The translations under genes and the position numbers were made by a program. The notes below the pieces were generated by a model. It had not been told where the DNA came from and ran no database searches. It saw only the letters and a program-made list of their open reading frames with translations. This document shows positions 1,973 through 34,652 of a stretch of 37,763 bases of DNA, in pieces. How positions within the stretch are numbered: the first letter of the stretch is position 1; every line of letters starts with the position of its first letter. The DNA is from Fusicatenibacter sp. (lineage in GTDB: Bacteria > Bacillota > Clostridia > Lachnospirales > Lachnospiraceae), in contig JAGHIA010000091.1 of NCBI GenBank assembly GCA_017887445.1, positions 1 to 37,763 of the forward strand, read 5' to 3'.

Positions 1973-2022
1973 ACTTTCGCATAGTATAAGGTTATGGTTA
2001 AACTTTCGCAAGAAATTGCGAA
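1973..2022. promoter_or_regulatory. Candidate operator: repeated ACTTTCGCA and a TTCGCAA palindrome
   Basis: ACTTTCGCA occurs twice, at 1973-1981 and 2002-2010. The second copy is part of a perfect palindrome, TTCGCAAGAAATTGCGAA (2005-2022). Both lie 30-75 bases upstream of the -35 box of the small Cro/C1-type regulator gene. They are a plausible binding site for that regulator or for an activator; this is inference from position and symmetry. Confidence 0.5.
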
Positions 2023-2049
2023 TAAGTATTTTGTGCTTAAGATATTTTA

Positions 2050-2078
2050 TTGACTTCTCGGATATGTAATTATATACT
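2050..2078 (+). promoter_or_regulatory. Promoter of the island regulator gene
   Basis: TTGACT (2050-2055) and TATACT (2073-2078) are 17 bases apart, a near-consensus sigma-A promoter. It lies 42 bases before the ATG at 2121 and just downstream of the TTCGCAA palindrome. Confidence 0.7.
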
Positions 2079-2120
2079 GATATTGAGTGGACAAGAAAAT
2101 GAATTAAGAGAGTATATGCT

Positions 2121-2330
2121 ATGAAGATTAGTTATAAAAAGTTATGGATACGCTTAATTGAAAAAGAGATTTCTCCGGCTACACTTCGAAAAGATTTGAG
2201 TATCGCAACAGGGACCATGACAAAGTTGCGTCGAAATGAAGAAGTAGCACTTTCGGTTTTGCTGCGTATCTGTGCGTATCTGGACTGTAATATCGGTGAT
2301 ATTTGTGATGCAGTAAAGACAGAGTCATAA
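2121..2330 (+). CDS. Small Cro/C1-type helix-turn-helix regulator (YozG-like)
   Basis: A 69-aa protein that is essentially one DNA-binding domain. LRKDLSIATGTMTKLRRNE reads as the two helices of the HTH, followed by the SVLLRICAYLDCNIGDIC segment typical of small XRE-family regulators. There is no effector domain, so it probably works as a dimer on a palindromic site. The palindrome at 2005-2022 upstream of its own promoter is the obvious candidate. It is the first gene of the AT-rich island and probably controls itself and perhaps the genes downstream. The 204 bases between it and the next gene hold no convincing gene, only a short unsupported reading frame. An SD-like AAGAGAG lies 8 bases before the start. 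Confidence 0.8.
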   Translation: MKISYKKLWIRLIEKEISPATLRKDLSIATGTMTKLRRNEEVALSVLLRICAYLDCNIGDICDAVKTES

Positions 2331-2534
2331 TATTTTTAAACTTTGATTGTGGAGGCGGGATATAGCTTTTGACCTTAATGGTAGTAAGGTGCTATTGGTG
2401 GGAATGCTTTCCTGGAGCAGGATGCTGAATGTGAAACAATATGAAGAATCAATATGCAGATAGACAGGCGATATTGTTCGAATTCAAGAAATAAATTTAT
2501 ATTGAGCTAAATAATGTGATTACGAGGTACATAT

Positions 2535-4271
2535 ATGTCATATTGTAGAAAATGCGGAACCAAGCTGACAAATGACGCAAAATTTTGTCATCAATGTGGT
2601 TGCTCAGTGATGAATGAAAGCACAGGATATACGCAACGAAGGCAGGAGTTCGAAGGAAAAATGTATAAATGCCCTAATTGCGGTAAAATACTAAAGTCAT
2701 TTGTATTAAATTGTCCTGCTTGCGGCTATGAGTTACGTGGGGCAAGAACGTCTAGTGCGGTAAAAGAATTTGCTTTGAAATTGGAGGCTATTGAAGCAAG
2801 GCGGGAATATGAAAAACCTTATGGCTTTTTTGCGACGGCTGAAGCACAGCAAAGAGTATCTAAAACAGATGCGCAGAAAATTAGTTTGATAAAATGTTTT
2901 ACTGTTCCAAACACGAAAGAGGACATGCTTGAATTTATGATTTTAGCAACATCAAACATGAATATGCGGACATATGATTCTGCTAATACAGATATCTCAA
3001 AGAGTGAAAGAGAAGTAAATGCAGCCTGGTTTTCAAAAGTTCAGCAGGTGTATGAAAAAGCTAAAAGAAGTTACTCTACAGATAGTATATTTGCAGAAAT
3101 TAAGATGCTTTATGATAACTGTAATGAGGAAATCAAAAAAAGCAAGAAAAAAGGTATCATAAAACGAATACTCATGCTTGGCTGGATTCCAATTGTTTTA
3201 TTGGCTTGGGTTGTCTTAAATTTTGTTGAAGAACCCAAGGAAATTAAACGGTTAGAGGCTATTGTGGTTGAAGTACAAGAAGCTTTAGAAAATGGTGAAT
3301 ACAAACTCGCTTTAAATTATGCAGATTCTATTGATTATCAACGTTTTGATGCGGAAATGGAGCAAAAATGGGATATTGAACGGGAGTATTGGGTAGACAA
3401 AGTGCTTGAGGAGGCTACGGCAAATGGTGTGGATTTAGAGTATATGGCAACTCCAGATATAGATAGAGCAAATAATGAACCCGTTACTAGAGATAGTATC
3501 AATAGTGGATTTGTTGAAGGTATCAAAGAAAGTGTACAATCGGGGGTAGATGCTACGGAAGAAAACATTAATGAATTTAACGCAATTATGGACGAAACAA
3601 AAGATAAATCGCAACAGACGACAATATCGGAGGTTGAAACAATTTCTATAGGAGAGAATGATTACATAACAAATACTATAGAAAAAGGAACTACTTATAC
3701 GTATGGTTATGATGAATGGGGACTTTATTGTGCAACGGCTATATCTGATAGCGTCATTTCTATTGATAAATGGGAAAAAAATCTCTCACTAGAAAAATCA
3801 TTCAATAAGAAGTATGAGGTAGGGATGTTCAAAATTACGGATGCTCAATATGAATTTACATGGATTGATGAAGATTATACCGCCTTTTCATTTACATTGA
3901 CAGATAAAAATAACGGAGACTTTAAGAAATCAAAGAACATAGTATTTACTATTTTGGGAGTAGATGGTGATACTAATAAAGGAACAAATTATAATAAAAA
4001 AAATGTTTGCTATTCATATCGGAATGATGATTGGCATTTATACAGAGCGATACCATTGACGGATTTGGTTATGAAAATAGAATGTTGGTATAGACCACTG
4101 GCTTTAGGTAGTTTTCATTACGGATATGATATTTGTGTCATAAATATAAATGCTAAAGACACTGATTTTGAATGGACGGATGACGAACATACTTCGTTTA
4201 CTATATCAATTCAAGATAAAGAAAATAGTGACTTGAAGAATTCAACATTTGTAGCGTTTACACAAGATTAG
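2535..4271 (+). CDS. Double zinc-ribbon, single-pass membrane protein with a duplicated extracellular domain
   Basis: A 578-aa protein. Two zinc ribbons lie at the N-terminus: Cys4/Cys7/Cys18/Cys21 (MSYCRKCG...FCHQCG) and Cys46/Cys49/Cys60/Cys63 (YKCPNCG...NCPACG). A charged helical stretch follows, then one hydrophobic segment near residues 209-230 (RILMLGWIPIVLLAWVVLNF) preceded by a lysine cluster, which puts the ribbons inside the cell. The outer part has two related modules of about 90 residues (about 386-475 and 490-578) sharing Y-x5-D-W/E-W-x-LY, FEWTDDEHTSFTIS-like and D-L/F-K-x-S patterns, an internal duplication. I do not recognise a named family for these. The neighbouring SPFH gene recalls the Bacillus YdjG/YdjH-YdjI pairing, where zinc-ribbon membrane proteins partner with an SPFH protein. 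It sits 13 bases before the SPFH gene, so co-expression is likely. Codon usage is AT-rich. Confidence 0.8.
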   Translation: MSYCRKCGTKLTNDAKFCHQCGCSVMNESTGYTQRRQEFEGKMYKCPNCGKILKSFVLNCPACGYELRGARTSSAVKEFALKLEAIEARREYEKPYGFFATAEAQQRVSKTDAQKISLIKCFTVPNTKEDMLEFMILATSNMNMRTYDSANTDISKSEREVNAAWFSKVQQVYEKAKRSYSTDSIFAEIKMLYDNCNEEIKKSKKKGIIKRILMLGWIPIVLLAWVVLNFVEEPKEIKRLEAIVVEVQEALENGEYKLALNYADSIDYQRFDAEMEQKWDIEREYWVDKVLEEATANGVDLEYMATPDIDRANNEPVTRDSINSGFVEGIKESVQSGVDATEENINEFNAIMDETKDKSQQTTISEVETISIGENDYITNTIEKGTTYTYGYDEWGLYCATAISDSVISIDKWEKNLSLEKSFNKKYEVGMFKITDAQYEFTWIDEDYTAFSFTLTDKNNGDFKKSKNIVFTILGVDGDTNKGTNYNKKNVCYSYRNDDWHLYRAIPLTDLVMKIECWYRPLALGSFHYGYDICVININAKDTDFEWTDDEHTSFTISIQDKENSDLKNSTFVAFTQD

Positions 4272-4283
4272 GGAGGTAGAATT

Positions 4284-5600
4284 ATGGCATTACTCAATAG
4301 AAAGAACAGAAAAGGAGGTTTCATGGATGAAATCCGTTGTGATGAGTCTTCGTACTTAATTTGGAAATGGCATCCTGCTGGAGTACGGCCAGGCCAGGAA
4401 AAGAGAGAGAATGCTATTCGGTGGGGGTCTTCTCTGCGGGTGAGAGAAGGCGAGATTGCTGTTTTTATGTATAAGAAAAAAGATGGCGCCATGCAGGACA
4501 CCATTGTCGGGCCGTTCGATCAGACCATCAAAACAGCTAACTTCCCTGTTTTGTCAAGAATCATTGGCCTTGCATACGAAGGTGGTACACCGTTTCAGGC
4601 GGAGATTTACTTCATCAACCTTGCTCGTATCATTCAAGTGGAATTTGGGGTGCCATTCTTTGATATATATGACCCGAGATTTATCGATTTTGGTGTCCCG
4701 GTTGCTGTTAGAGGCACCATCAGTTTTCAGATTCAAGATTACCGTAGGTTCATTAAGCTCAACCGGCTGAATACATTTGAACTGAATGATTTTCAGAAGC
4801 AGATTCGAGATGTAGTATGTAGGTATGTGAAAGATGTGGTTGCCAATGCTCCAGCAGCCAACGACATTCCGGTCATTCAGATTGAGACCAAAACAGCACA
4901 AATCAATGATGTTGTGGAGTATGACATTTGTGAACGATTGAAAGAAACCTTCGGTGTTTTGGTATCCGGCGTGGATATTGGTGCTATTGAGATCGACAAA
5001 ACCAGCGAGGGTTACCGTCAGCTGATGGCTGTTACCAAAGATATTGCTGCAACGAGGATTGAGGCTGAGACACAGGACTATGTGGAGCGTCTTCGAATCC
5101 AGCGTGAAGAATGTCAGTATGCCTTGCACAAGCAGACACAAACATCCAATATCGGTGCATTTCAAGTGGAGAAGCAGGCAGAAGTCGGTGTTGCTGGAGC
5201 GCAGGCACTCGGTCAGATGGCTCCTAATGGTGCCGGTGATGTGAATTTGGGCGGTGGAGACGGGTTCAACATGGCCGCCATGATGGCAAGCATGGCTCTC
5301 GGGGGTACTGTTGGTCAAAATATCGCCGGGGCAATGAACAACATGATGGGCAGTATGAGCCAGACTTCTCAGCCGGGCACAGTTCCGCCTCCAATTCCGG
5401 TTGTTACATATCATGTCGTAGTCAATGGACAGGCTGCCGGGCCGTTTGATCTTTCCGCTCTTGCACAGATGTCTGCAAGTGGACAGCTTACTGCGGACAG
5501 TTTGGTATGGAAAAGTGAGATGGCACAATGGGAAAAAGCCGGTACTATTGATGAACTTAAAAATTTCTTCAGTGTAGTACCGCCAATTCCGCAAGAATAA
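4284..5600 (+). CDS. SPFH-domain protein with C-terminal GYF_2 domain (YdjI-like)
   Basis: A 438-aa protein related to YdjI, often annotated as virion core protein. The SPFH (band 7) core covers roughly residues 60-290, including GPFDQTIKTANFPVLSRIIG and the DYRRFIKLNRL region. An Ala/Gly/Met-rich linker (about 300-365) follows, and then a GYF_2-type module (about 375-430: YHVVVNGQAAGPFD ... LVWKSEMAQWEKAG) that is likely to bind peptides. It has no membrane segment, so it is presumably cytoplasmic and recruited to the membrane by the zinc-ribbon protein upstream. In Bacillus, YdjI helps PspA associate with membranes; no pspA is present here. The chosen ATG has GGGAGG 7 bases upstream. A second in-frame ATG at 4323 also has a perfect AAAGGAGGT but at short spacing, so a shorter form starting there is possible. 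Confidence 0.88.
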   Translation: MALLNRKNRKGGFMDEIRCDESSYLIWKWHPAGVRPGQEKRENAIRWGSSLRVREGEIAVFMYKKKDGAMQDTIVGPFDQTIKTANFPVLSRIIGLAYEGGTPFQAEIYFINLARIIQVEFGVPFFDIYDPRFIDFGVPVAVRGTISFQIQDYRRFIKLNRLNTFELNDFQKQIRDVVCRYVKDVVANAPAANDIPVIQIETKTAQINDVVEYDICERLKETFGVLVSGVDIGAIEIDKTSEGYRQLMAVTKDIAATRIEAETQDYVERLRIQREECQYALHKQTQTSNIGAFQVEKQAEVGVAGAQALGQMAPNGAGDVNLGGGDGFNMAAMMASMALGGTVGQNIAGAMNNMMGSMSQTSQPGTVPPPIPVVTYHVVVNGQAAGPFDLSALAQMSASGQLTADSLVWKSEMAQWEKAGTIDELKNFFSVVPPIPQE

Positions 5601-5620
5601 GTCATTTTAAGAGGTGGATG

Positions 5621-6901
5621 ATGATAAAACGACTGGTACAGGCGATGCTTTTGGCCGTAATATTGGCGATGACTTTGTCTGCTTGTGGTTCGGATGATGC
5701 TAATTATGAGAGCGATACAACCATCGATACAGAAAATAATGATGGAATGGATTTGGTTGATGTTCCGACAGAGGACTACATTATTTCCTGTCTTGAGAAT
5801 ACGCCGAATATTCTTGAAGTTGCCGCTGTCACAGAAGAAAATGATCCGAATGGGCACCTAAATGCAGAGGATGGATATTATTCTGCTGTATTTTTCTCTG
5901 TTGATATAATTGATCAGAATGAAGTATACGGTGAGGGACTTATTGATAAGGGTACTGATGCAGGGGGATGTATCGAAGCATACAAAACAGAAGCTGATGC
6001 TCAAGCTCGTGACGAGTATTTATCTGGTTATGATGATAGCTGGTTATTTAATGCTGGATATCATACTGTTGTAGGAACTCTTGTGATCCGTACATCACAA
6101 AAACTTACTGAAAACGATCAGGCACAATTAGAAACCAACATCATAAGTGTTTTTAATGGGAAACCGGATGATGTAAGGCCTTTCACTAATATATCTGAAA
6201 AAGAAGATGAAGCAGTATCAAACTCAGAGGTAAGTGCAGATACTGTGTCAGAGCATTCTACCGAGGAAATTACCATGTCGCAGGGAGCGTCAGATTATCT
6301 TGGCGCAAACTGGACAATTGATTCTTTAACTGAGCATTTTGAAGAAATGGGTTTTACAAATATAAGAACGATACCGTGTGAACCCAACGATGATAACTAC
6401 GAAAGCAATATTTTTGAGTTATACATCGAAACAGGAGGGTTTAGCTCAGATTCTTGGGAAGCTGGAGACAAATTCGAGCCAGATGTAGAAATTAGTATCT
6501 ATTATAACGAATCTCCTATTTTAACAATTGAGAATTGCAATGATCTTGCTACAGTATTAACTAGCCAAGATATGAGTTATTCTACCTTTGCAGAAAAATA
6601 TAATGGACAATACGTGAAGTTTGATGGATATGTCACGTATCATATTACCTATAATGCAGGAATCGATCATATCATTCAAGTTACAGGTGGTGACTATGAT
6701 GGCTCAGTTGAGTTGGGACATTCTGACGATGGGTATTATGATGGCCTTAATATTTATATTGGTGATCGTACAATGGATAGTTCTATAGACGAGAGTGTGG
6801 ATGAAGGTACTCCTGTAACTGTTAGCGGTAAAATAAGCGCAGATTGGAGCGAATATTATGGGAATTTATATGTGGAAACAATTCACCTTAATAGACGATA
6901 A
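5621..6901 (+). CDS. Lipoprotein with DUF4839-type C-terminal domain
   Basis: A secreted lipoprotein of 426 aa. The signal peptide has a short KR n-region, a hydrophobic core (LVQAMLLAVILAMTL) and an LSAC lipobox with the Cys at residue 22, followed by an acidic linker. The middle region is uncharacterised. The last 150 residues or so (from NCNDLATVLTSQDMSYSTF through AEKYNGQYVKFDGYVTYHI to ISADWSEYYGNLYVETIHL) match the pattern of DUF4839, an OB-like domain of unknown function. ATG codons at 5618 and 5621 are in tandem. I chose 5621 because the SD GAGGTGG (5611-5617) would be almost flush with the first. It follows the SPFH gene by 20 bases and is probably co-transcribed, as the cell-surface part of the same module. 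No function is known. Confidence 0.8.
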   Translation: MIKRLVQAMLLAVILAMTLSACGSDDANYESDTTIDTENNDGMDLVDVPTEDYIISCLENTPNILEVAAVTEENDPNGHLNAEDGYYSAVFFSVDIIDQNEVYGEGLIDKGTDAGGCIEAYKTEADAQARDEYLSGYDDSWLFNAGYHTVVGTLVIRTSQKLTENDQAQLETNIISVFNGKPDDVRPFTNISEKEDEAVSNSEVSADTVSEHSTEEITMSQGASDYLGANWTIDSLTEHFEEMGFTNIRTIPCEPNDDNYESNIFELYIETGGFSSDSWEAGDKFEPDVEISIYYNESPILTIENCNDLATVLTSQDMSYSTFAEKYNGQYVKFDGYVTYHITYNAGIDHIIQVTGGDYDGSVELGHSDDGYYDGLNIYIGDRTMDSSIDESVDEGTPVTVSGKISADWSEYYGNLYVETIHLNRR

Positions 6902-7226
6902 TATATTGGGTGAAAATTTCCTGATTGGAAGTATTATTAAGTAGGCTGAATGTTTTTTGAATACGTGTAAGAAGGTTTAGTAACCTTTTTTCGAAGTCGC
7001 TGGTATTTTCTGGATTTGTGTCTGGGAAATGTTTCTGAAAGTTTTAATAACTCTTGCTGCGTCTAATGTAGGTGGAAAAAGATGTTTCTATGTTTCGGGT
7101 AAGTTAATTTGGTAATGAGTTATCGTTGTGAATGATTTAGGGGGAATATGCGGTTGTAAAAAAGTTCCGCCGAACGCACATGCCGCCTGCTCCCCTCCCT
7201 TTTCGTCCCCATTTCGCAAAAAGAGG
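6902..7226. other. Intergenic gap at the right edge of the AT-rich island
   Basis: No gene is visible. The base composition changes from AT-rich to GC-rich at about 7150, marking the island boundary. A weak terminator-like hairpin lies at 6972-6991. I find no att-like direct repeat, tRNA or integrase at either edge. Confidence 0.5.
6972..6991 (+). terminator. Weak terminator-like hairpin after the lipoprotein gene
   Basis: AAGGTT (6972-6977) and AACCTT (6982-6987) form a 6-bp stem with a 4-base loop followed by TTTT. The stem is short and AT-rich, so the call is tentative. Confidence 0.4.
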
Positions 7227-7338: not shown

Positions 7339-7396
7339 TTGGAAGTAAACTTCCAAATCTACCATTATTGGCGCAGCGAGTGCGCCATGAGAGGAG
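7339..7396 (+). promoter_or_regulatory. 58-base leader repeat, copy 1 (before the Sua5 gene)
   Basis: Matches 17457-17514 at 51 of 58 positions. It begins with the palindrome TTGGAAGTAAACTTCCAA, followed by TCTACCATTATTGG, and ends in the SD GAGGAG of the gene. The CCAA that closes the first hairpin could instead pair with the downstream TTGG, so two hairpins compete. In this copy GGCGCA/TGCGCC adds a third stem. It may be a translational control element; that is inference. Confidence 0.6.
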
Positions 7397-7401
7397 AAAA
7401 G

Positions 7402-8451
7402 ATGAAGGCATGGGTTGCCAAAATGACAGAAGAACAACTGGACCAGGAAGCGATACGGAAAGCCGGAGAGATCCTGAAAAGCGGCGGCCTGGCAGCGTTC
7501 CCCACAGAGACCGTCTACGGTCTTGGCGGAAACGCCTTTGACGCCGAGGCTTCCCAGAAGATTTACGCGGCGAAAGGCAGGCCCAGCGACAACCCTCTGA
7601 TCGTACACATCGCGCGGATGGAGGACCTGGAAGTCGTAGCCAGGAACATTCCGGACAACGCCAGAACGCTGGCCAAAGCCTGCTGGCCCGGCCCGCTGAC
7701 CATGATCCTTGAGAAGACCGAAGCGGTGCCAAAAGAAACCACCGGCGGTCTGAATACCGTCGCTGTGCGTTTTCCCAGCAACCGCATCGCCCAGGCGCTG
7801 ATCCTGGCTGCCGGCGGTTTCGTGGCGGCGCCCAGCGCCAACACCTCCGGAAGACCCAGTCCCACCACAGCGGAGCATGTGATAGAGGATCTGGGAGACA
7901 GCATCGACTGTATCCTGGACGGCGGAATGGTGGAGATCGGTCTGGAGTCCACCATCGTGGATTTCACGGAAGGGACGCCGATGATCTTGCGGCCGGGGTC
8001 TCTGAACCGGGAGCGGCTGGAAGAAATCCTTGGAACTGTGCGCACGGACCCGGGTCTGCTTGCCCAGGAGACGCACACTCGCCCAAAAGCGCCGGGGATG
8101 CGTTATAAGCACTACGCGCCCAACGCGGATCTGACCATCGTGGAGGGGGCGGAGCAGGCGGTCGTGGAGAAGATCCGCGCTCTGGCGGCGAAGCAGCTTG
8201 CCTGCGGCGCGAAAGTAGGGATCATCTGCACGGACGAGACGAGACAGGAATATCCCCAGGGAGATGTAAAAAGCATCGGCGCCCGGTCGGACGAAGCGTC
8301 CATCGCCCGGCATCTGTACGGGATCCTGCGGGAGTTTGACGGCGACCATGTGGATATTATTTATTCGGAGGCGTTCGATACGCCGAAGATGGGACAGGCG
8401 ATCATGAACAGGCTTCTGAAAGCTGCAGGACATAAGCGGATAGAAGTATAA
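7402..8451 (+). CDS. ywlC: L-threonylcarbamoyladenylate synthase (Sua5/YwlC, two-domain)
   Basis: Makes threonylcarbamoyl-AMP from threonine, bicarbonate and ATP, the first step of the t6A37 modification of ANN-decoding tRNAs. The YrdC fold is clear: GGLAAFPTETVYGLG near residues 29-43, KIYAAKGRPSDNPL, then APSANTSGRPSPT and GLESTIVDF. The C-terminal Sua5 domain follows the linker PGMRYKHYAPNA and runs to the end, giving 349 aa, the usual length of the two-domain form. The ATG at 7402 has GAGGAG 5 bases upstream, inside the 58-base leader repeat. It is the first gene of a compact operon with the phosphatase homologue, rpiB, upp and the dCMP deaminase. Confidence 0.95.
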   Translation: MKAWVAKMTEEQLDQEAIRKAGEILKSGGLAAFPTETVYGLGGNAFDAEASQKIYAAKGRPSDNPLIVHIARMEDLEVVARNIPDNARTLAKACWPGPLTMILEKTEAVPKETTGGLNTVAVRFPSNRIAQALILAAGGFVAAPSANTSGRPSPTTAEHVIEDLGDSIDCILDGGMVEIGLESTIVDFTEGTPMILRPGSLNRERLEEILGTVRTDPGLLAQETHTRPKAPGMRYKHYAPNADLTIVEGAEQAVVEKIRALAAKQLACGAKVGIICTDETRQEYPQGDVKSIGARSDEASIARHLYGILREFDGDHVDIIYSEAFDTPKMGQAIMNRLLKAAGHKRIEV

Positions 8452-10687: not shown

Positions 10688-12025
10688 GTGAAGATAAAAC
10701 TTCCGGCCAGTGTAAAGATGGTGATTGAGAGCCTCCAGGCGAGAGGCTTCGAGGCGTATGCGGTGGGCGGATGTGTCCGGGACAGTATTCTTGGAAGGTC
10801 TCCGGACGACTGGGATATTACCACCTCGGCGACGCCTTACGAGGTGAAAAAGATTTTTCAGAAAACCGTGGACACAGGACTGAAGCACGGCACGGTGACG
10901 GTGCTGGCCGGCAGCCATGCCCATGAGGTGACCACTTACCGGATCGACGGGGAGTACGAGGATTCCCGCCATCCGAAAAATGTGGAATTTACCAGAAATC
11001 TCGGGGATGATCTGCAGCGCAGGGATTTCACCATCAATGCCATGGCTTACAACGATCTGGCGGGTCTGGTGGACCTGTACGGCGGAATGGAGGATCTGCA
11101 GAAAAAAAGTATCCGCTGTGTGGGAAACCCGAAGGAACGTTTCGGGGAGGATGCTCTCAGGATCCTGCGGGCAGTACGTTTCAGCGCCCAGCTTGGGTTT
11201 GGCATTGAGGAGGAAACCCTGCGGGCGGTACAGGACCTGGCGCCGACGCTGAAGCAGATCAGCGCGGAGCGCATCGCGGTGGAGCTGACAAAACTTCTGG
11301 TGTCTGACCGTCCGGAAGCCATGAGAACTGTCTGGGCGACGGGGATCACCAAGGTGGTGCTTCCGGAGTTTGACCGGCTGATGGAAACGCCCCAGAACAA
11401 TCCGCACCACTGTTATAACGTGGGAGAGCATACGCTGGAAAGCCTGCGCTTTGTGGGAAACGACAAGGTGCTGCGCTGGACCATGCTGCTGCATGATATG
11501 GGGAAACCGGCCTGCCGTACCACAGACGAGGACGGTGTGGATCATTTCAAAGGCCATGGAAGGGCCAGTGTGGAGCTGGCAAAAGAAATCCTGAAGCGGC
11601 TGAAATTTGACAACGACACCATACGGAAGGTCACTGTGCTGATCCAGTGGCACGACTGCAGGATGAACGCCGACGCCAAATCCGTCCGGCGCATTATGAG
11701 CCGCGTGACGCCGGAGCTGTTCCGGCTGCTGATGGAGGTACAGTATGCGGACGCCATGGCACAGAGCGAATACCGCCGCAGGGAAAAGCTGGAACGGATC
11801 GAGAAGGTACGGAAGCTCAGCAAAAAGATTGTGGAGCAAAAGCAGTGTCTGAGCCTGAAAGACCTGAAACTGACGGGAAAAGACGTTATGGAACTGGGCG
11901 CGGTACCCGGACCGGTGATCGGTCAGGTGCTGAACGCGGCGCTGTACGAGGTGCTGGAGGAACCCTCCCGCAACGAGCCGGAAATCCTGAAGAAGTTTGC
12001 TAAGGGGTATTTGGAGCGGCTTTGA
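10688..12025 (+). CDS. cca: CCA tRNA nucleotidyltransferase with HD domain
   Basis: Adds or repairs the 3' CCA of tRNAs. The nucleotidyltransferase head shows YAVGGCVRDSILGR and the metal-binding DDWDITTSA. RRDFTINAMAYN and the RNA-binding region LRAVRFSAQLGFGIEEET follow, then an HD-type domain (HCYNVGEHTLESL ... LLHDMGKP ... FKGHGRASVELA). The product is 445 aa from the GTG at 10688, which has AAGGAG 10 bases upstream. ATG codons further upstream lack an SD and would add a basic non-conserved stretch. It lies 44 bases before the APH-like kinase, so the two may be co-transcribed. Confidence 0.93.
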   Translation: MKIKLPASVKMVIESLQARGFEAYAVGGCVRDSILGRSPDDWDITTSATPYEVKKIFQKTVDTGLKHGTVTVLAGSHAHEVTTYRIDGEYEDSRHPKNVEFTRNLGDDLQRRDFTINAMAYNDLAGLVDLYGGMEDLQKKSIRCVGNPKERFGEDALRILRAVRFSAQLGFGIEEETLRAVQDLAPTLKQISAERIAVELTKLLVSDRPEAMRTVWATGITKVVLPEFDRLMETPQNNPHHCYNVGEHTLESLRFVGNDKVLRWTMLLHDMGKPACRTTDEDGVDHFKGHGRASVELAKEILKRLKFDNDTIRKVTVLIQWHDCRMNADAKSVRRIMSRVTPELFRLLMEVQYADAMAQSEYRRREKLERIEKVRKLSKKIVEQKQCLSLKDLKLTGKDVMELGAVPGPVIGQVLNAALYEVLEEPSRNEPEILKKFAKGYLERL

Positions 12026-12069
12026 ACATTCATCCCTGTTTTGACTTGAAGAGAAAGGAAAGAAAGCGT

Positions 12070-12864
12070 ATGAACAAACTGCCGGAATCGATCCGGAAAC
12101 AAATGGGCCAGCGGAAGTTCCGGGAAAATTCCGTGGGCATGTCCGGCTCCCGGGTGCTGGAGTCTGAGGATCTGGTCCTCAAAATTCAGACACGATCCAG
12201 AGAGACAGACAATGAATATCAGATCTGCCGGTGGCTGGGGGCGCAAAGCCTGCCTGCGCCGGAAATCCTGGCTTATGAAGCGGTGAACGGCACAGCGTAC
12301 TGTCTGATGACAAAAATAAAAGGGAAAATGCTCTGCGATGAGGAATACATGACCGACCCGGAACGGCTGCTGACACTTGTCTGTCAGGGACTGAACATGC
12401 TCTGGAACGTGGATATCGCGGCATGTCCCTGTGACAACACGCTGGATGCGCGGCTTGGAGACGCCCGCTATGCGGTGGAGCATAACCTGGTGGATCTGGA
12501 CAACGTAGAGGAAGACACCTTCGGGCCGCAGGGATTCTCCGGTCCGGAAGAACTTCTGCGGTGGCTGGAGACAAACCGCCCGGAGGAAGAAATTGTATTT
12601 TCCCACGGAGATCTCAGCCTGCCCAACGTTTTTGCCGACGGAGACAGGATCAGCGGATTCATAGACCTGGGAAAAACAGGAAAGGCAGACCGCTGGCAGG
12701 ACCTGGCCATCTGCTACCGCAGCCTCAGAGATAACTTTGCCGGACGCTACAACGGAGGCCATCCCTATCCGGGATATCGTCCCGAGATGCTGTTTGAACG
12801 CCTTGGCATCCGCCCGGACGCGGAAAAACTGAAATACTATCTTCTGCTGGACGAACTATTCTGA
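12070..12864 (+). CDS. APH(3')-like aminoglycoside O-phosphotransferase homologue
   Basis: A 264-aa kinase-fold protein, exactly the length of APH(3')-IIIa and with the same closing pattern (KYYLLLDELF). All expected catalytic pieces are present: the ATP-binding Lys in DLVLKIQTR, the paired Glu in NEYQICRWLG, the Brenner motif FSHGDLSLPN with His179, catalytic Asp181 and Asn186, and metal-binding Asp199 in GFIDLGKTGKADRWQDLA. The family transfers phosphate from ATP to the 3'-OH of aminoglycosides. Whether this chromosomal homologue confers resistance or has another substrate cannot be told from sequence. No mobile element adjoins it and its base composition matches the host. ATG at 12070; AAAGGA lies about 10 bases upstream. 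Confidence 0.85.
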   Translation: MNKLPESIRKQMGQRKFRENSVGMSGSRVLESEDLVLKIQTRSRETDNEYQICRWLGAQSLPAPEILAYEAVNGTAYCLMTKIKGKMLCDEEYMTDPERLLTLVCQGLNMLWNVDIAACPCDNTLDARLGDARYAVEHNLVDLDNVEEDTFGPQGFSGPEELLRWLETNRPEEEIVFSHGDLSLPNVFADGDRISGFIDLGKTGKADRWQDLAICYRSLRDNFAGRYNGGHPYPGYRPEMLFERLGIRPDAEKLKYYLLLDELF

Positions 12865-12932: not shown

Positions 12933-13634
12933 ATGAAAACAGAGCAGAAAAACACAGGGTCCTTTTCCGGCAGCCGCGCCGCGCGGCCGGAAACCTGGGA
13001 TAACTACGAATACACAAAAGAAAAGATCCGCCCCGAATTTCTGAAATACGACCAGGAAACCATGATCCGGCGCTTCCGCCTGAAACATGACGGGGATTAT
13101 CTATATCTCCCCTTTGTGGGAAGTGAATACCGCATTCGCCGCCAGACCGGGGAAGTAGAAAAACTGACCGGCCAGGGAGACAGCGTACGCACGGAGCCAG
13201 CCGATTACAGCGAAGCATTGTCCATATACGACATCCTCTGCTATTCCAGATCAGACGCCACACTAAGCGGCCGCTGGAGCCTGGTGAACAGCCTGCCCGG
13301 CGTCGGCCAGAACAGCGGACTGGGCGACAACAGCCTGAATCATCACGCCCAGTACGTTGACCAACACCCCGACGCCTACAAAGCCGCCTGCGAAGCCATA
13401 GGCGGAAAAGAAGTCCCCTGCGGCGACATTGGCTACGAGATCCCCGTCTACCCCTTCTACCCCATCCGCCTGCGCTTCTACCACTCCGACGAGGAATTTC
13501 CCGCCCAGATGTCCGTCCTCTTCGACGAAAACACCCTCAACTACATGCACTACGAAACCACCTTCTACGTCGTAGGCTGCCTCATGCGAGCCATCCGCTC
13601 CAGAATGCAGGAACGCATTCCCCACAAACTGTGA
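12933..13634 (+). CDS. DUF3786 domain protein
   Basis: A 233-aa protein matching the DUF3786 pattern known from clostridia and archaea: YDILCYSRSDATLSGRW, then the EIPVYPFYPIRLRFYHSDEE core, and FDENTLNYMHYETTFYV near the C-terminus. The function is unknown; the domain occurs in anaerobes, sometimes beside corrinoid or methyltransferase genes, which are not present here. AAAGGAG precedes the ATG. The gene lies between two 27-base direct repeats and is followed by repeat modules and the first giant hairpin. It could be a small cassette. Confidence 0.85.
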   Translation: MKTEQKNTGSFSGSRAARPETWDNYEYTKEKIRPEFLKYDQETMIRRFRLKHDGDYLYLPFVGSEYRIRRQTGEVEKLTGQGDSVRTEPADYSEALSIYDILCYSRSDATLSGRWSLVNSLPGVGQNSGLGDNSLNHHAQYVDQHPDAYKAACEAIGGKEVPCGDIGYEIPVYPFYPIRLRFYHSDEEFPAQMSVLFDENTLNYMHYETTFYVVGCLMRAIRSRMQERIPHKL

Positions 13635-13643
13635 TGCACATCA

Positions 13644-13670
13644 TGCAGAAAGCAATTTTCAAATACGCTC
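13644..13670 (+). repeat. 27-base direct repeat, right copy
   Basis: Right-hand partner of 12874-12900 (two differences), beginning 9 bases after the DUF3786 stop codon. Confidence 0.65.
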
Positions 13671-13674
13671 CAGA

Positions 13675-13725: not shown

Positions 13726-13865
13726 TCCTGTACTCCTGTATGTACCATATTTTCATACGGTCTGTGCTGTACAACAAAATCAACAACACACTCCCAAAAG
13801 GCTCCTATCTACCGCCACCATCCAAACAGTATCGGCATCCCCCCAAAAACCGCCGCCACCAGACA

Positions 13866-14379
13866 GAAAGCGGGAGGGGCAGGCGCAGCGGGGACGCGCG
13901 GAAGGTGCGGGGCGGCGCAGGCGGAAGCAGCGGCAGAGGGCGGCAGACAGCGGCGCGCGGGACAGGGGAGCGGGAGCGGCCGCGGCGGCAGCGGGAAGGG
14001 CGGGGAGGAGCTGCTGTGTGTGCGGCGGGCGTCTGTGAATGCAGCTGGAAATTCCGGTGCGCAGGGGAGGTTTCGGCCAGGCCAGGCGAGGTGTTGCCAA
14101 CACCGAGCCTGAGGAGCACTGAACCGCGAACGCATCATGCGTTCACGGTGAATTGCTCCGGTGCCTGGCCGAAACCTCCCCTGCACACCGAGAATTTCCC
14201 TGCATTCACAGCAGTCCGCCGCACACACAGCAGCTCCTCCCCGCCCTTCCCGCTGCCGCCGCGGCCGTTCCCGCTCCCCTGTCCCGCGCGCCGCTGTCTG
14301 CCGCCCTCTGTCACTGCTTCCGCCTACGCCGCCCCGCCCCTTCCGCAACGTCCCCGCTGCGCCTGCCCCTCCCGCTTTC
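13866..14379 (+). repeat. Giant inverted repeat, copy 1 (217-base arms), possible structured RNA
   Basis: Left arm 13866-14082 and right arm 14163-14379 are inverted copies, about 94% alike by eye, with an 80-base centre. The outer stem is extremely GC-rich. The centre holds a small hairpin (GGTGTT-gcc-AACACC, 14090-14104) and a 47-base hairpin at 14113-14159. Some arm differences recur at the same place in the second element (29085-29473), notably GCGGGCGTCTG (14025-14035) opposite CAGCAGTCCGC (14209-14219). Open frames here are only by-products of the GC richness and lack start signals. The + strand is favoured because it gives tandem G-A pairs in the inner loop. Confidence 0.8.
14113..14159 (+). 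ncRNA. 47-base central hairpin of giant element 1
   Basis: Outer stem GGAGCA/TGCTCC, symmetric internal loop CTGA/GAAT, inner stem ACCG-GAACGC/GCGTTC-CGGT with one C-A mismatch, and loop ATCAT. The same architecture occurs at 29270-29316 with compensatory changes in the stems and an identical internal loop. RNA status is inferred. Confidence 0.5.
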
Positions 14380-14451
14380 GTCCCCCATAACATTTTTTCC
14401 CCAACCCCCGCATACTTATAAAAAGACGATAACGCAAAGGGGGAGCTTTTC

Positions 14452-17272: not shown

Positions 17273-17279
17273 GCGAAAG

Positions 17280-17307
17280 GTAACGATTCCGCTGGCTGAC
17301 TGGTTAC
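17280..17307. repeat. 28-base palindrome GTAAC...GTTAC (dispersed family)
   Basis: Begins GTAACGATTCCGCTGG and ends GGTTAC. First of a direct pair after the phosphoglucomutase gene. Confidence 0.7.
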
Positions 17308-17325
17308 AGCAAAAGGAAGATGCGT

Positions 17326-17353
17326 GTAACAGTTCCGCTGGCTGAACTGTTAC
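17326..17353. repeat. 28-base palindrome GTAAC...GTTAC (dispersed family)
   Basis: Begins GTAACAGTTCCGCTGG and ends GAACTGTTAC. The arms GTAACAGTTC/GAACTGTTAC are perfectly complementary. It lies 18 bases after the previous copy. Confidence 0.75.
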
Positions 17354-17456: not shown

Positions 17457-17514
17457 TTGGAAGTAAACTTCCAAATCTACCATTGTTGGAGCAGCCAGTG
17501 GGCCGTGAAAGGGG
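17457..17514 (+). promoter_or_regulatory. 58-base leader repeat, copy 2 (before mazG)
   Basis: Same element as 7339-7396, 51 of 58 positions alike. The TTGGAAGTAAACTTCCAA palindrome and TCTACCATTGTTGG are kept. The third stem is not kept (GGAGCA opposite TGGGCC), so only the first part looks constrained. It again ends at the SD (AAAGGGG) of the gene. Confidence 0.6.
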
Positions 17515-17519
17515 TAAGG

Positions 17520-18266
17520 ATGAAAAACATGAGCAATAAAAAGAATGAGGAACAGAAGCGGCAGGCGGCAGAGGCCTTTGAGCGGCTGTATGAGGTGGTG
17601 GAGACGCTGCGGGGTGAGGAAGGATGCCGCTGGGACCGGGCGCAGACCAACCACTCGCTGAAACAGTTTTTGATCGAGGAGGCTTACGAGACGGCGGACG
17701 CGATCACCGCCATGGACCGGGGAGAGGGAACCGGCGGATTGGTGGAAGAACTGGGGGACGTGTTGTTTCTGACTATGCTCCACAGCGAGATCGGCAGGCA
17801 GGAGGGAACCTTTACCTTCGCGGATGTAGCCGGGGGAAGCAGCCAAAAAATGATCCACCGCCATCCCCAGGTATTTCCCGACGCGGAGGGGCGAAAAGAG
17901 AAAAAGGACTGGGAGGCGCTGAAAAAAGAGGAAAAAGCCCCGGTGACGCCTCAGGAAGAGATGGAACAGATCCCCCACTGCTTTCCGGCGCTGCTCCGTA
18001 CCCAGAAGGTACAGAAAAAAATGCAGAAATACGATGGGACCGGAGGAGATTTTCTGGAATGCGCAGGCAAGGCGGAGACGCTCCTTGCGGCGGCGAAGGC
18101 GGCCGGACCGGATGGCCTGACCCCGGAAACCGGCGGGGAGCTTCTCTATCAGGTCTGCAATCTTCTCAGGCTGTCCGGCATGAACAGCGAACAGCTCTTA
18201 AAGGACACACTGGAAACAAAACTGGCCGGGAGAGCTTCCGCGCAAAAAAATCCCGAAGCGCAGTGA
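17520..18266 (+). CDS. mazG: Nucleoside triphosphate pyrophosphohydrolase MazG
   Basis: Hydrolyses (d)NTPs to monophosphates and pyrophosphate; thought to clean the nucleotide pool. The N-terminal MazG domain is intact: TLRGEEGCRWDRAQTNHSL, EEAYETADAI and the metal-binding VEELGDVLFLTMLHS. HRHPQVF follows, as is normal. The second MazG domain is eroded: the expected EELGDLLFxxVN motif is GELLYQVCNLLRL, so it probably lacks activity. The ATG at 17520 (248 aa) lies just after the leader repeat. It corresponds to the MazG part of Bacillus YabN and starts the conserved sporulation-cluster order. Confidence 0.92.
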   Translation: MKNMSNKKNEEQKRQAAEAFERLYEVVETLRGEEGCRWDRAQTNHSLKQFLIEEAYETADAITAMDRGEGTGGLVEELGDVLFLTMLHSEIGRQEGTFTFADVAGGSSQKMIHRHPQVFPDAEGRKEKKDWEALKKEEKAPVTPQEEMEQIPHCFPALLRTQKVQKKMQKYDGTGGDFLECAGKAETLLAAAKAAGPDGLTPETGGELLYQVCNLLRLSGMNSEQLLKDTLETKLAGRASAQKNPEAQ

Positions 18267-18422: not shown

Positions 18423-18538
18423 TATGGAGAGAGTGATTCTGTCAGGAAATACCACATTTGCAGTACCTGCCGGTATAAGAGCAGTTCAGATGTCAATACT
18501 ATTGTACAGGCGGCGCCTGGCAGAACTGTGCAGAAAGA

Positions 18539-18566
18539 GTAACCGTTCAGCTGGCTGAACTGTTAC
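18539..18566. repeat. 28-base palindrome GTAAC...GTTAC in the hup leader
   Basis: Begins GTAACCGTTCAGC and ends GCTGAACTGTTAC. A nearly perfect palindrome that would form a hairpin in the hup leader RNA. Confidence 0.75.
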
Positions 18567-19234: not shown

Positions 19235-19334
19235 TACCTGCGGCATCTGGCCCATCGCGGAGCAATCTTCCGCGGCCGGGTGCCGCAGGTATTTATCTGA
19301 CGGGATGTAACCGTTCCGCTGGCTGAACGGTTAC
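19235..19334. repeat. Palindromic repeat pair between rqcP and yabP
   Basis: TACCTGCGGCA (19235-19245) pairs with TGCCGCAGGTA (19281-19291), enclosing CGCGG...CCGCG. A 28-base GTAAC...GTTAC palindrome follows at 19307-19334. Confidence 0.65.
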
Positions 19335-24428: not shown

Positions 24429-24513
24429 AGTTCAGCCTTGCGGAACGATTACACGCTTCGCGATACACAGACGCTGTATTTTGCGGCAGCCGTTCAGCGG
24501 GCTGAGCAGTTAC
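24429..24513. repeat. Composite dispersed repeat between hpt and ftsH
   Basis: Starts AGTTCAGCCTTGCGGAACGA, continues TTACACGCTTCGCGATACAC, and ends GAGCAGTTAC. The first half matches the left part of the element at 34474-34652 and, inverted, the right part of 30245-30405. It reads open in the ftsH frame, which can mislead start-site prediction. Confidence 0.7.
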
Positions 24514-29084: not shown

Positions 29085-29473
29085 GAAACCGACCCCGAGG
29101 CGCGTCACGCGGCGGCGCTGGCGCTGTGAGGGCGGACGGGGAACTGGCGCGGGAAGGGGCGGGCGGCATGGGTGGGTTCTGCGGGCGTCTGAAAAAAATG
29201 CGAGAAAATCTTAATGTCCCGGAGACGTTCTGACCGGGGCAGACTCCGGACCACACGTCCGGAGTCTGAGGCGCACTGAGACGGGAATGCATCAAGCATT
29301 CCTGTCGAATTGCGCCGGTCCCCGGTCAGAACGCCTCCGGGACATTTAGATTTTCCGCATTTTTTCAGCAGTCCGCAGAACCCACCCATGCCGCCCGCCC
29401 CTTCCCGCGCCAGTTCCCCGCCCGCCTTCACAGCCGCCAGCGCCGCCGCGTGACGCGCCTCGGGGCCGGTTTC
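29085..29473 (+). repeat. Giant inverted repeat, copy 2 (155-base arms), possible structured RNA
   Basis: Left arm 29085-29239 and right arm 29320-29473 are inverted copies with few differences. The centre holds an 11-bp hairpin (AGACTCCGGAC/GTCCGGAGTCT, 29241-29267) and the 47-base hairpin at 29270-29316. The internal loop GCGGGCGTCTG (29181-29191) opposite CAGCAGTCCGC (29366-29376) is identical to that in element 1, although surrounding stem sequence differs. It fills the gap between the GH13 gene (+) and treR (-). The 180 bases before it (28905-29084) hold a nested CAGTGC/GCACTG hairpin and no gene. Confidence 0.8.
29270..29316 (+). ncRNA. 47-base central hairpin of giant element 2
   Basis: Outer stem GGCGCA/TGCGCC, internal loop CTGA/GAAT, inner stem GACGGGAATGC/GCATTCCTGTC, loop ATCAA. 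Matches 14113-14159 at 35 of 47 positions, with four two-sided compensatory changes. RNA status is inferred. Confidence 0.5.
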
Positions 29474-29482
29474 GTCCGCCTT

Positions 29483-30208
29483 CTACCTCCTCACCGCATT
29501 ATCCTGAAACCGGAAATAATCCGGCCGATGCCGCGACTGGGTAAATTCAAACATCACCCCGTCACTGTTATAAGTATGGCTGGACACCACCGCCATACAA
29601 TTATAATCATTGGCATCCAGATGCAGATACTTCTCATCGATCTGCGTGATCTTCTCCACCGTCATCACCCGCCGGCTGTTGACAATGGTCATATGCAGCG
29701 TATTCTCCAGATAATCATAGATCGATCCCTCAGCGATCTCCCGGGTCAGTCCCGGCACGGCGCTTTTGAGAAAATAATTGTGATTGATGATCAGCGGTTT
29801 CCCGTCCAGATAATGAAGGCGCTGGAGATAGTAAAGCTCCGAGCCCACCGGGAAATCCGTCCGCCGGGCAATTTTCGTGTCCGCGGTGATCTCCAGAAAG
29901 CAGAGAACCTCCGTGCGTCCTTCCTGATGGTTCCGTTTGGCTGATTCACGGAAGGACTCAATTCCGCCCAGGGTAAAGGAAGTCTGTTCCACCGGACGGA
30001 AAATATTCCGGACGCCTTTTCCCTGCAGGGTCTGGACATACCCGTCCGTCACCAGGCGGGAGATGGCCCGGCGTACCGTGTTGCGGGAACAGCCGTAGGT
30101 CTGGACCAGCACATGCTCCGACGGAAGCAAGTCCTGGTAGGTGAATTCTTCTCCTTCAATTTTCTGCTTCAGATCTTTATAAATCGTTTCATATTTGCTT
30201 TTCGGCAT
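29483..30208 (-). CDS. treR: GntR-family repressor of the trehalose operon (TreR)
   Basis: A 241-aa regulator of the GntR/HutC type. The N-terminal winged helix is visible (IYKDLKQKIEGEEFTYQDLL, then LPSEHVLVQTYGCSRNTVRR). The UTRA ligand domain follows (GSELYYLQRLHYLDGKPLII, then VEKITQIDEKYLHLD). TreR family members sense trehalose-6-phosphate, which releases them from the operator. It diverges from treP, with 391 bases between, in which a composite repeat is inserted. TTGTTTAAACAA-like operators lie at 30441-30547 on the treP side. AGGA lies just before the start. Its 3' end abuts giant element 2. Confidence 0.92.
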   Translation of the reverse strand: MPKSKYETIYKDLKQKIEGEEFTYQDLLPSEHVLVQTYGCSRNTVRRAISRLVTDGYVQTLQGKGVRNIFRPVEQTSFTLGGIESFRESAKRNHQEGRTEVLCFLEITADTKIARRTDFPVGSELYYLQRLHYLDGKPLIINHNYFLKSAVPGLTREIAEGSIYDYLENTLHMTIVNSRRVMTVEKITQIDEKYLHLDANDYNCMAVVSSHTYNSDGVMFEFTQSRHRPDYFRFQDNAVRR

Positions 30209-30244: not shown

Positions 30245-30405
30245 GTTACTGTTCACAGCCGGTAACAGTTCGGCCTGCCACTATCCCGCGAGGTGTTTTC
30301 GCACAGAATGTGCGAAAATCCCGAGGCATGCAGCGCGAAACTGCATGAAATGCAGTTTCTGTGCATCGCGAAGCGTGTAATCGTTCAGCAAGGCGGAACT
30401 GTTAC
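30245..30405. repeat. Composite dispersed repeat between treR and treP (about 160 bases)
   Basis: Opens GTTACTGTTCACAGCCGGTAAC and closes GCGGAACTGTTAC. Read on the - strand, it matches the + strand of 34474-34652 module by module (TTACACGCTTCGCGA, AAACTGCATTTCATGCAGTT, GCCTCGGGATTTTCG, then the ACATTCTGTGCGAAAACAC module). It contains hairpins such as CTGCATGAAATGCAG. Confidence 0.8.
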
Positions 30406-34473: not shown

Positions 34474-34652
34474 GTAACAGTTCAGCGTTGCTGAACGATT
34501 ACACGCTTCACGACGCACAAAAACTGCATTTCATGCAGTTTCGCGCTGCAGGCCTCGGGATTTTCGTAACCGTTCAGCCAGCTGAACTGTTACGGATTTT
34601 CACACATTCTGCGCGAAAACACTTGGCAGGAGAGTGACAGGCAGACTGTTAC
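34474..34652. repeat. Composite dispersed repeat between treC and ptsH (about 180 bases)
   Basis: Starts GTAACAGTTCAGCGTTGCTG and ends CAGACTGTTAC. It carries the same modules as 30245-30405 but in the opposite orientation, plus an extra 28-base palindrome (GTAACCGTTCAGCC...GTTAC at 34567-34594) inserted between the GGATTTTCG and ACATTCTG modules. Confidence 0.8.

Follow-up and report, generated by a model that had tools for sequence, protein, structure and literature searches.

A three-way junction at the tip of giant hairpins in Fusicatenibacter and other genera marks a putatively mobile, non-coding repeat often located behind stop codons

The window analysed here, meaning the whole stretch of 37,763 nucleotides from Fusicatenibacter sp. 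(contig JAGHIA010000091.1, positions 1 to 37,763), contains two giant hairpins, E1 and E2 (Table 1), each including a 47-nt hairpin that we call P2. P2 forms one branch of the three-way junction that caps each giant hairpin, and we propose that the whole structure is a non-coding, non-autonomous mobile repeat of gene 3′ ends, a reading to which we give a probability of roughly 0.6. The repeat is often located behind stop codons in a fixed orientation, and folding of the plus strand of its core, either as RNA or as single-stranded DNA, appears to be selected.

The two 47-nt hairpins of the window (14113-14159 and 29270-29316) align without gaps and are identical at 35 of 47 positions. Direct reading bears out what the preliminary description had reported for them: equal length, changes on both sides at pairs 3-45, 11-37, 12-36 and 19-29, replacement of G-C by G-T at pair 14-34, and an internal loop, CTGA (7-10)/GAAT (38-41), that is the same in both. 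Pair 15-33 also differs between the two copies (a C.A mismatch versus G-C). The fold of each 47-mer is better than those of 200/200 dinucleotide shuffles (z -6.72 and -6.73 on the plus strand), and the RNA fold of the E1 region (13840-14400, minus strand) reaches -564.9 kcal/mol (z -37.8). The structure had not been recognised as a named RNA family, in agreement with an Rfam search of the whole window that gave no match at the gathering cut-off; the best score over one copy, 17 bits to a microRNA model with a cut-off of 93, is at chance level. The earlier view of a hairpin common to two giant elements holds insofar as both copies are present, but the hairpin is really a single arm of a junction that has more than 100 copies.

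A gap-free alignment of copies from the window's genome (A3) places the 47-mer at columns 42-88 of a core of 104 columns. This core consists of a basal stem P0 (columns 1-11 with 92-102), a hairpin P1 (12-23 with 29-40) containing either a GA/GA internal loop or TC/GA pairs, a single A, P2 and a GGT linker leading back to P0; P2 itself is composed of six pairs, the CTGA/GAAT loop, eleven pairs and a pentaloop. A3 combines 18 of 25 rows retrieved by a script with the second window copy (of the other seven rows, five were truncated by contig ends, one was a false match and one was omitted). Among its 19 copies, 18 of them distinct, two-sided changes affect 26/38 pairs, 97.8% of cells are paired and one-sided changes occupy 3/684 cells, values in which pairing is favoured in P2 and unaffected in P0 and P1 because the script selected rows with a CACTGA/GAATTG-like frame in which no less than 60% of the inner 39 bases pair. 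RNAalifold, unaided, reproduces the A3 fold with one extra pair in the P2 loop.

The larger alignment A4 gathers 80 model matches from 66 chosen sources representing up to ten genera. In this alignment, which was fitted to the structure of the model, 36/38 pairs change on both sides, 96.7% of cells are paired and the covariation score is 0.915, versus 0.234 in shuffles; two-sided cells number 1077, whereas shuffles give 314 and slid structures no more than 224. Of the five shuffle measures applied to A4, one is not above shuffles: the count of further pair types, which 107 of 500 shuffles reach. The loop of P2 is CTGA/GAAT in 66 of the 80 copies, CCTGA/GAAT in five, TTGA/GAAT in four, CTAA/GCAT in three and of another form in two, while the single A is retained in 79/80 copies and the GGT linker in 75/80. 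The strong covariation in A3 and A4 and the well-kept loop thus support the claim of a selected structure that was first made from the two window copies.

Table 1. Coordinates of the two giant hairpins, their core parts and the gene adjoining E2 in the window.
Feature	Position	Strand	Details and basis
E1, whole giant hairpin	13866..14379	+	arms 217/217 nt, 94% (arm extension); ends CA|GAAAG...CTTTC|GTCC
E1 P0, 5′ strand (basal stem of three-way junction)	14072..14082	+	A3 columns 1-11
E1 P1 hairpin, GA/GA internal loop	14083..14111	+	A3 columns 12-40
E1 P2 hairpin, CTGA/GAAT loop (stretch of the preliminary description)	14113..14159	+	A3 columns 42-88; shuffles
E1 GGT linker	14160-14162	+	
E1 P0, 3′ strand	14163..14173	+	A3 columns 92-102
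E2, whole giant hairpin	29085..29473	+	arms 155/154 nt (arm extension)
E2 P0, 5′ strand	29229..29239	+	A3 columns 1-11
E2 P1 hairpin, TC/GA pairs in place of GA/GA	29240..29268	+	A3 columns 12-40
E2 P2 hairpin (second copy in the preliminary description)	29270..29316	+	A3 columns 42-88; shuffles
E2 GGT linker	29317-29319	+	
E2 P0, 3′ strand	29320..29330	+	A3 columns 92-102
GntR/UTRA regulator gene, 3′ end adjoining E2	29483..30208	-	Pfam GntR, UTRA

The genome of the window (G000, 3.88 Mb) contains 113 matches to the core model R1 (E ≤0.01; 150 of 1,625 candidates scored). Its congeners G001 to G006 contain 1, 2, 27, 1, 15 and 0 matches, respectively, and carriers amount to 8 of 61 genomes among the relatives, the genome of the window included (65 candidates scored in each). 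In a family-wide sample, the core was detected in 15/299 genomes and 14/298 genera (13 candidates scored in each), while the window's genome was the sole match at 1e-6 among 398 genomes sampled across the phylum (model R2, 10 candidates scored in each). Carriers among the matches listed for a strict pattern include Diplocloster agilis, D. modestus, Lacrimispora saccharolytica An817, Candidatus Fusicatenibacter merdavium and a Dorea MAG. Near-alike copies occupy many loci in D. agilis and in genome G184. No match was obtained for the E1 core in phage records, for the E2 core in plasmid records or for one strict core pattern in viral contigs. A literature search, mostly of openly accessible journal articles, yielded no description of this family.

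Long palindromes invite the suspicion that such copies are artefacts of assembly. Twenty-one of the 113 matches in G000 start within 250 bases of the first base of a contig, locus L088 is an inverted duplicate, and contig C39 of G005 (L241) folds back on itself where it terminates, at the E1 hairpin, an artefact of assembly that calls for caution at palindromes of this kind. Single copies may therefore be misassembled, but for the family this explanation is refuted by the copies found in the single-contig genomes G115, G261, G076, G311 and G065 and by the position of both window copies inside their contig.

Comparison of orthologous sites indicates that gain or loss involves the element as a whole. 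The E2 site is empty in G001 (about 145 nt) and in G005 (about 130 nt) between the same genes, with unrelated terminator-like hairpins there, as judged by eye. The E1 site is empty in G001 and occupied by other sequence in G003, and an orthologous E1 split over two contigs is present in G005. At a third locus, three G000 elements are absent from G001 and one is present in G003. Gene order around both window sites is the same with or without the element. Since it is non-coding and shows such copy numbers, a patchy distribution and empty sites, the repeat behaves as a non-autonomous mobile element.

We searched for a protein that could mobilise it. Y1 transposases (Y1_Tnp, PF01797) have matches in the carriers G002 to G005, G021 and G032, but none in G000 despite its 113 copies, and were rejected as the mobiliser on that ground. 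Reverse transcriptases and group II introns were also rejected, RVT_1 (PF00078) having no match in the carriers G003, G005 and G032 and one match in G000 (G115 and G184 lay outside this search). Remnants of Rpn nucleases adjoin copies in G184, but Rpn matches occur in 32/37 genomes, carriers and non-carriers alike, and this candidate was set aside as well. Within the genus, Rpn counts do follow the hairpins (10 in each of G000, G003 and G005; 1, 0, 0 and 1 in G001, G002, G004 and G006), which is a weak lead. Three widely spaced element pairs have no common protein between them: by eye, what they hold is a BspA-type repeat protein, an acetyltransferase and, on one contig, an inverted duplicate. 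No autonomous element with the same ends was found in the loci examined, genome-wide searches having covered three protein families. Most loci examined in G184 contain units ending in RGAATTTRG...CYAAATTCY, and several of these units have TA on both sides; no target duplication was established in G000.

In G000, the stop codon of an open reading frame of at least 100 amino acids lies within 40 nt of 25/63 right (gene-side) ends, versus 2/58 left ends and a background of 305/4314 random points in the same loci; at the other 38/63 gene-side ends there is no such stop within this distance. The 25 genes preceding these elements have diverse C-termini. The same contrast between gene-side and other ends is observed in G261 (3/5 versus 0/5 within 40 nt) and G115 (14/15 versus 2/15 within 70 nt), and a weaker one in D. 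agilis (13/20 versus 6/20 within 60 nt). Among neighbouring G000 copies less than 2 kb apart, 12/14 pairs are oriented (-,+), as expected with one copy behind each of two convergent genes. In the window, 9 nt separate the right end of E2 from the stop of the GntR gene, which is convergent with it, while E1 is exceptional in its position, 232 nt behind the end of the preceding gene and 73 nt before the following one.

In two other genera, represented by G184 and G115, many copies begin directly at a stop codon. Of 30 matches in G184, 20 regions were fetched and 15 loci examined; the unit, which its end pattern delimits to 474-836 nt, directly adjoins a stop codon in 13/15 loci, one of these having an open reading frame of 36 amino acids only. 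Two loci of another subtype, L269 and L270, have no long open reading frame directly before them. The far end of the unit was found in 14 loci, and in eight of these a convergent open reading frame of at least 100 amino acids terminates no more than 5 nt from it. In G115, a (-,+) pair is present in 9/15 loci; in the eight pairs with both genes found (the ninth was dropped, its gene A not being found), a stop codon followed by WTGGG marks 11/16 ends and both ends in 4/8 pairs, with TAA, TAG and TGA all occurring. An apparent replication-strand bias in G115 with 12 copies became weaker with 15.

These boundaries, the most surprising feature of the family, lead us to a bolder proposal, which we hold only tentatively: the element would target the translation stop and land exactly behind it, and the two-hairpin unit of G115 would span the distance from a stop to a convergent stop, replacing the intergenic space. 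The enzyme recognising the folded antisense strand would belong to neither the Y1 transposases nor the reverse transcriptases, and the arms would be renewed by copying one onto the other. We know of no transposase that reads gene ends by a stop-codon boundary; if this boundary were the true target, the family would represent a mobile element reading gene ends.

The outer arms were measured for the G000 copies whose loci had been fetched, 64 of the 113. Immediately outside the arms stand CA on the left in 53/64 copies and GTC on the right in 51/64. The commonest arms measure exactly 92/91 nt (16 copies); the same arm size is found in 5/10 Lacrimispora copies, whose ends are mostly the same as in G000. 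Fourteen of these 16 G000 copies share a single gap pattern; in them, variability is highest at the outermost columns (2.58 pair types each), yet mismatches there occupy 10/504 cells, and pairwise differences there are two-sided and paired in 1104 cases, one-sided in 93 and of another kind in 34. Between one orthologous pair with a common right flank (copy C67 of G000 and copy C11 of G003), 91 arm pairs show 16 two-sided and eight one-sided changes, and 27 core pairs show three and two, respectively. The arms of D. agilis differ among copies and match within each copy (mostly 86-96%); L090 and L091 contain mirrored insertions. In the nested D. agilis element L085 (840 nt), one element lies between half of another and the inverted copy of that half, and copy C22 has its P2 converted to a perfect palindrome.

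Multi-base compensatory changes in RNA genes have been attributed to DNA template switching by Monttinen and Loytynoja (2022, PMC8794818). Template switching between the arms of a palindrome is expected to yield symmetrised copies, mirrored indels and two-sided changes that pass through few G.T intermediates, the patterns seen in these arms. Covariation is usually read as proof of RNA, but in this family it occurs inside a DNA palindrome with seemingly re-matched arms. Since template switching between DNA arms also gives two-sided changes, compensation alone is no proof of selection on RNA, and the argument of the preliminary description that double compensation makes RNA more likely than DNA is unsupported as it was put. 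Outward flanks of G000 elements, examined as target hairpins, pair at a score of at least 7 in 13/51 cases (51 of the 64 elements), versus about 2 expected from shuffled flanks, an excess that arm copying may have caused.

One could go further and regard all the covariation as a mutational by-product of template switching in long palindromes, the fold being without function. Two-sided changes do dominate both arms and core, and C22 and L085 are cases in point. We nevertheless find this unlikely: template switching should erase the CTGA/GAAT loop and the linkers, together with the G.T pair and the mismatches that recur at fixed arm columns, and all of these are kept. Mismatches recur at eight arm columns, among them 28 (T.T in 55/64 copies), 51 (C.T in 44) and 23 (A.C in 23).

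The balance of G.T and A.C errors can separate RNA-type selection from DNA arm copying. On the plus strand of the core in A4, G.T exceeds A.C both outside one particular pair (46 versus 21) and at that pair (34 versus 1), figures that count cells on related copies and not independent events. The arms lack this preference: outside the eight recurrent columns there are 66 G.T and 67 A.C, and in the distal arms of the 64 copies, where 2726/2812 pairs match, 29 and 34 (two bins summed). In arm columns 12-39, A.C exceeds G.T (44 versus 11), mostly because of the recurrent column 23. Given the excess of G.T over A.C on the plus strand and the survival of the asymmetric parts, and with the reservation about cell counts, we infer that folding of the core plus strand is selected, as RNA or as single-stranded DNA. 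The strand preference also speaks against the by-product explanation. Since the right ends lie behind stop codons, the core plus strand is antisense to the preceding gene.

A different explanation is that the repeat is a functional RNA family, transcribed at each locus, with a junction that binds a host protein or ends or protects mRNA 3′ ends, so that each gene needs its copy. The covariation across up to ten genera in A4 and the placement behind stop codons would fit, as would the unrelated terminator-like hairpins seen at the E2 site of G001 and G005. A T-rich tail follows the hairpin in the gene direction in 22/61 G000 copies and in the reverse direction in 1/60, and from this sequence feature we predict that the repeat may end transcription of its host gene in G000; in other genera, such tails occur in 2/22 copies in either direction. 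The G.T preference and the G.A-capable loop belong, however, to the antisense strand, congeners manage with few or no copies, the preference is absent from arm errors, and no promoter-like site was seen around E2. Taken together, these points leave a functional RNA family rather doubtful.

The attC sites of integrons are imperfect hairpins behind genes, recognised through the folded antisense strand, in which sequence varies and shape is kept. By analogy, the repeat might be an attC-like recombination site at which a tyrosine recombinase moves genes, its position, orientation and folded antisense strand having a resemblance to attC. Unlike attC, it lacks 7-bp core sites near both ends (RYYYAAC/GTTRRRY 7-mers at both in 0/60 copies, 4/1200 at random). 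This result and the constant gene order at the two window sites make an attC-like site very improbable.

The closest counterparts of the proposed mobile repeat are bacterial MITEs and structured intergenic repeats (ERIC, YPAL, RUP, NEMIS and bcr1), for which PMC3733652 gives a size of 70-300 bp. Like the MITEs described there, the repeat is non-coding, dispersed in intergenic copies, hairpin-forming and often adjacent to genes, and like them it has terminal inverted repeats, the whole element being one inverted repeat. Unlike known MITEs, it forms a larger hairpin (commonly about 264 nt, 514 nt for E1 and 840 nt for the nested L085), has a three-way-junction tip found across genera and arms varying among copies, and has stop-codon boundaries in two genera. 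YPAL targets span or flank dyad symmetry (PMC2229807), and catalogues of stem-loop families have already been published (PMC2267715). High-copy extragenic palindromes, dimers and the proposed recognition of a folded single strand recall REP and REPIN sequences (PMC3733652), but REPs are described there as 20-40 bp with a GTAG or CGTC tag, whereas the commonest arms here measure 92/91 nt, and the 113-copy carrier G000 has no match to RAYT (PF01797). The template-switched stems of Monttinen and Loytynoja belong to RNA genes, whereas the stems here belong to a dispersed repeat with long arms.

For the mobile repeat that we favour, a trans-acting protein would recognise the folded strand, which is antisense to the gene upstream, either as RNA or, during transposition, as single-stranded DNA. 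Recognition would rely on P2, including the CTGA/GAAT loop, and on the two linkers, A and GGT. The outer arms would be kept complementary mainly by template switching of DNA polymerase, one arm being copied onto the other, and in G000 the repeat could have come to serve as a possible transcription end for its host gene. Many hairpins of hundreds of bases may explain the break-up of such genomes into many contigs. They also raise the puzzle of how long hairpins escape hairpin-cleaving enzymes, of which SbcCD is one.

Several other repeats and features were noted along the way. In G184, a second palindrome family of 225-250 nt (L288, 1992-2226 and 3909-4161) has a GAATTTRG-like end in common with the hairpin family and sits at the other end of its unit. 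An aminoglycoside phosphotransferase gene of the APH(3′) family, above the NCBIfam cut-off, is located at window positions 12022-12864, two genes before E1, and about 190 nt left of E1 lies a segment of about 60 nt (13610-13673) of which G003 has several close copies. G+C content is 0.33-0.47 at 2001-7000, versus 0.48-0.61 in the remaining 1-kb windows. A 29-nt palindromic repeat close to GTAACNGTTCNGCTGGCTGAACNGTTAC has six copies in the window (17279-17307, 17325-17353, 18538-18566, 19306-19334, 24485-24513 and 34565-34593), and repeats resembling it by eye are contained in the orthologous spacers of G001 and G005. A second dispersed repeat, of 53-93 nt, occurs in both orientations (30313-30405, 34474-34566 and 24429-24481). 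Finally, a 68-nt repeat (87%) with the palindrome TTGGAAGTAAACTTCCAA is present at 7339-7406 and 17457-17524, where the Sua5 and MazG open reading frames start.
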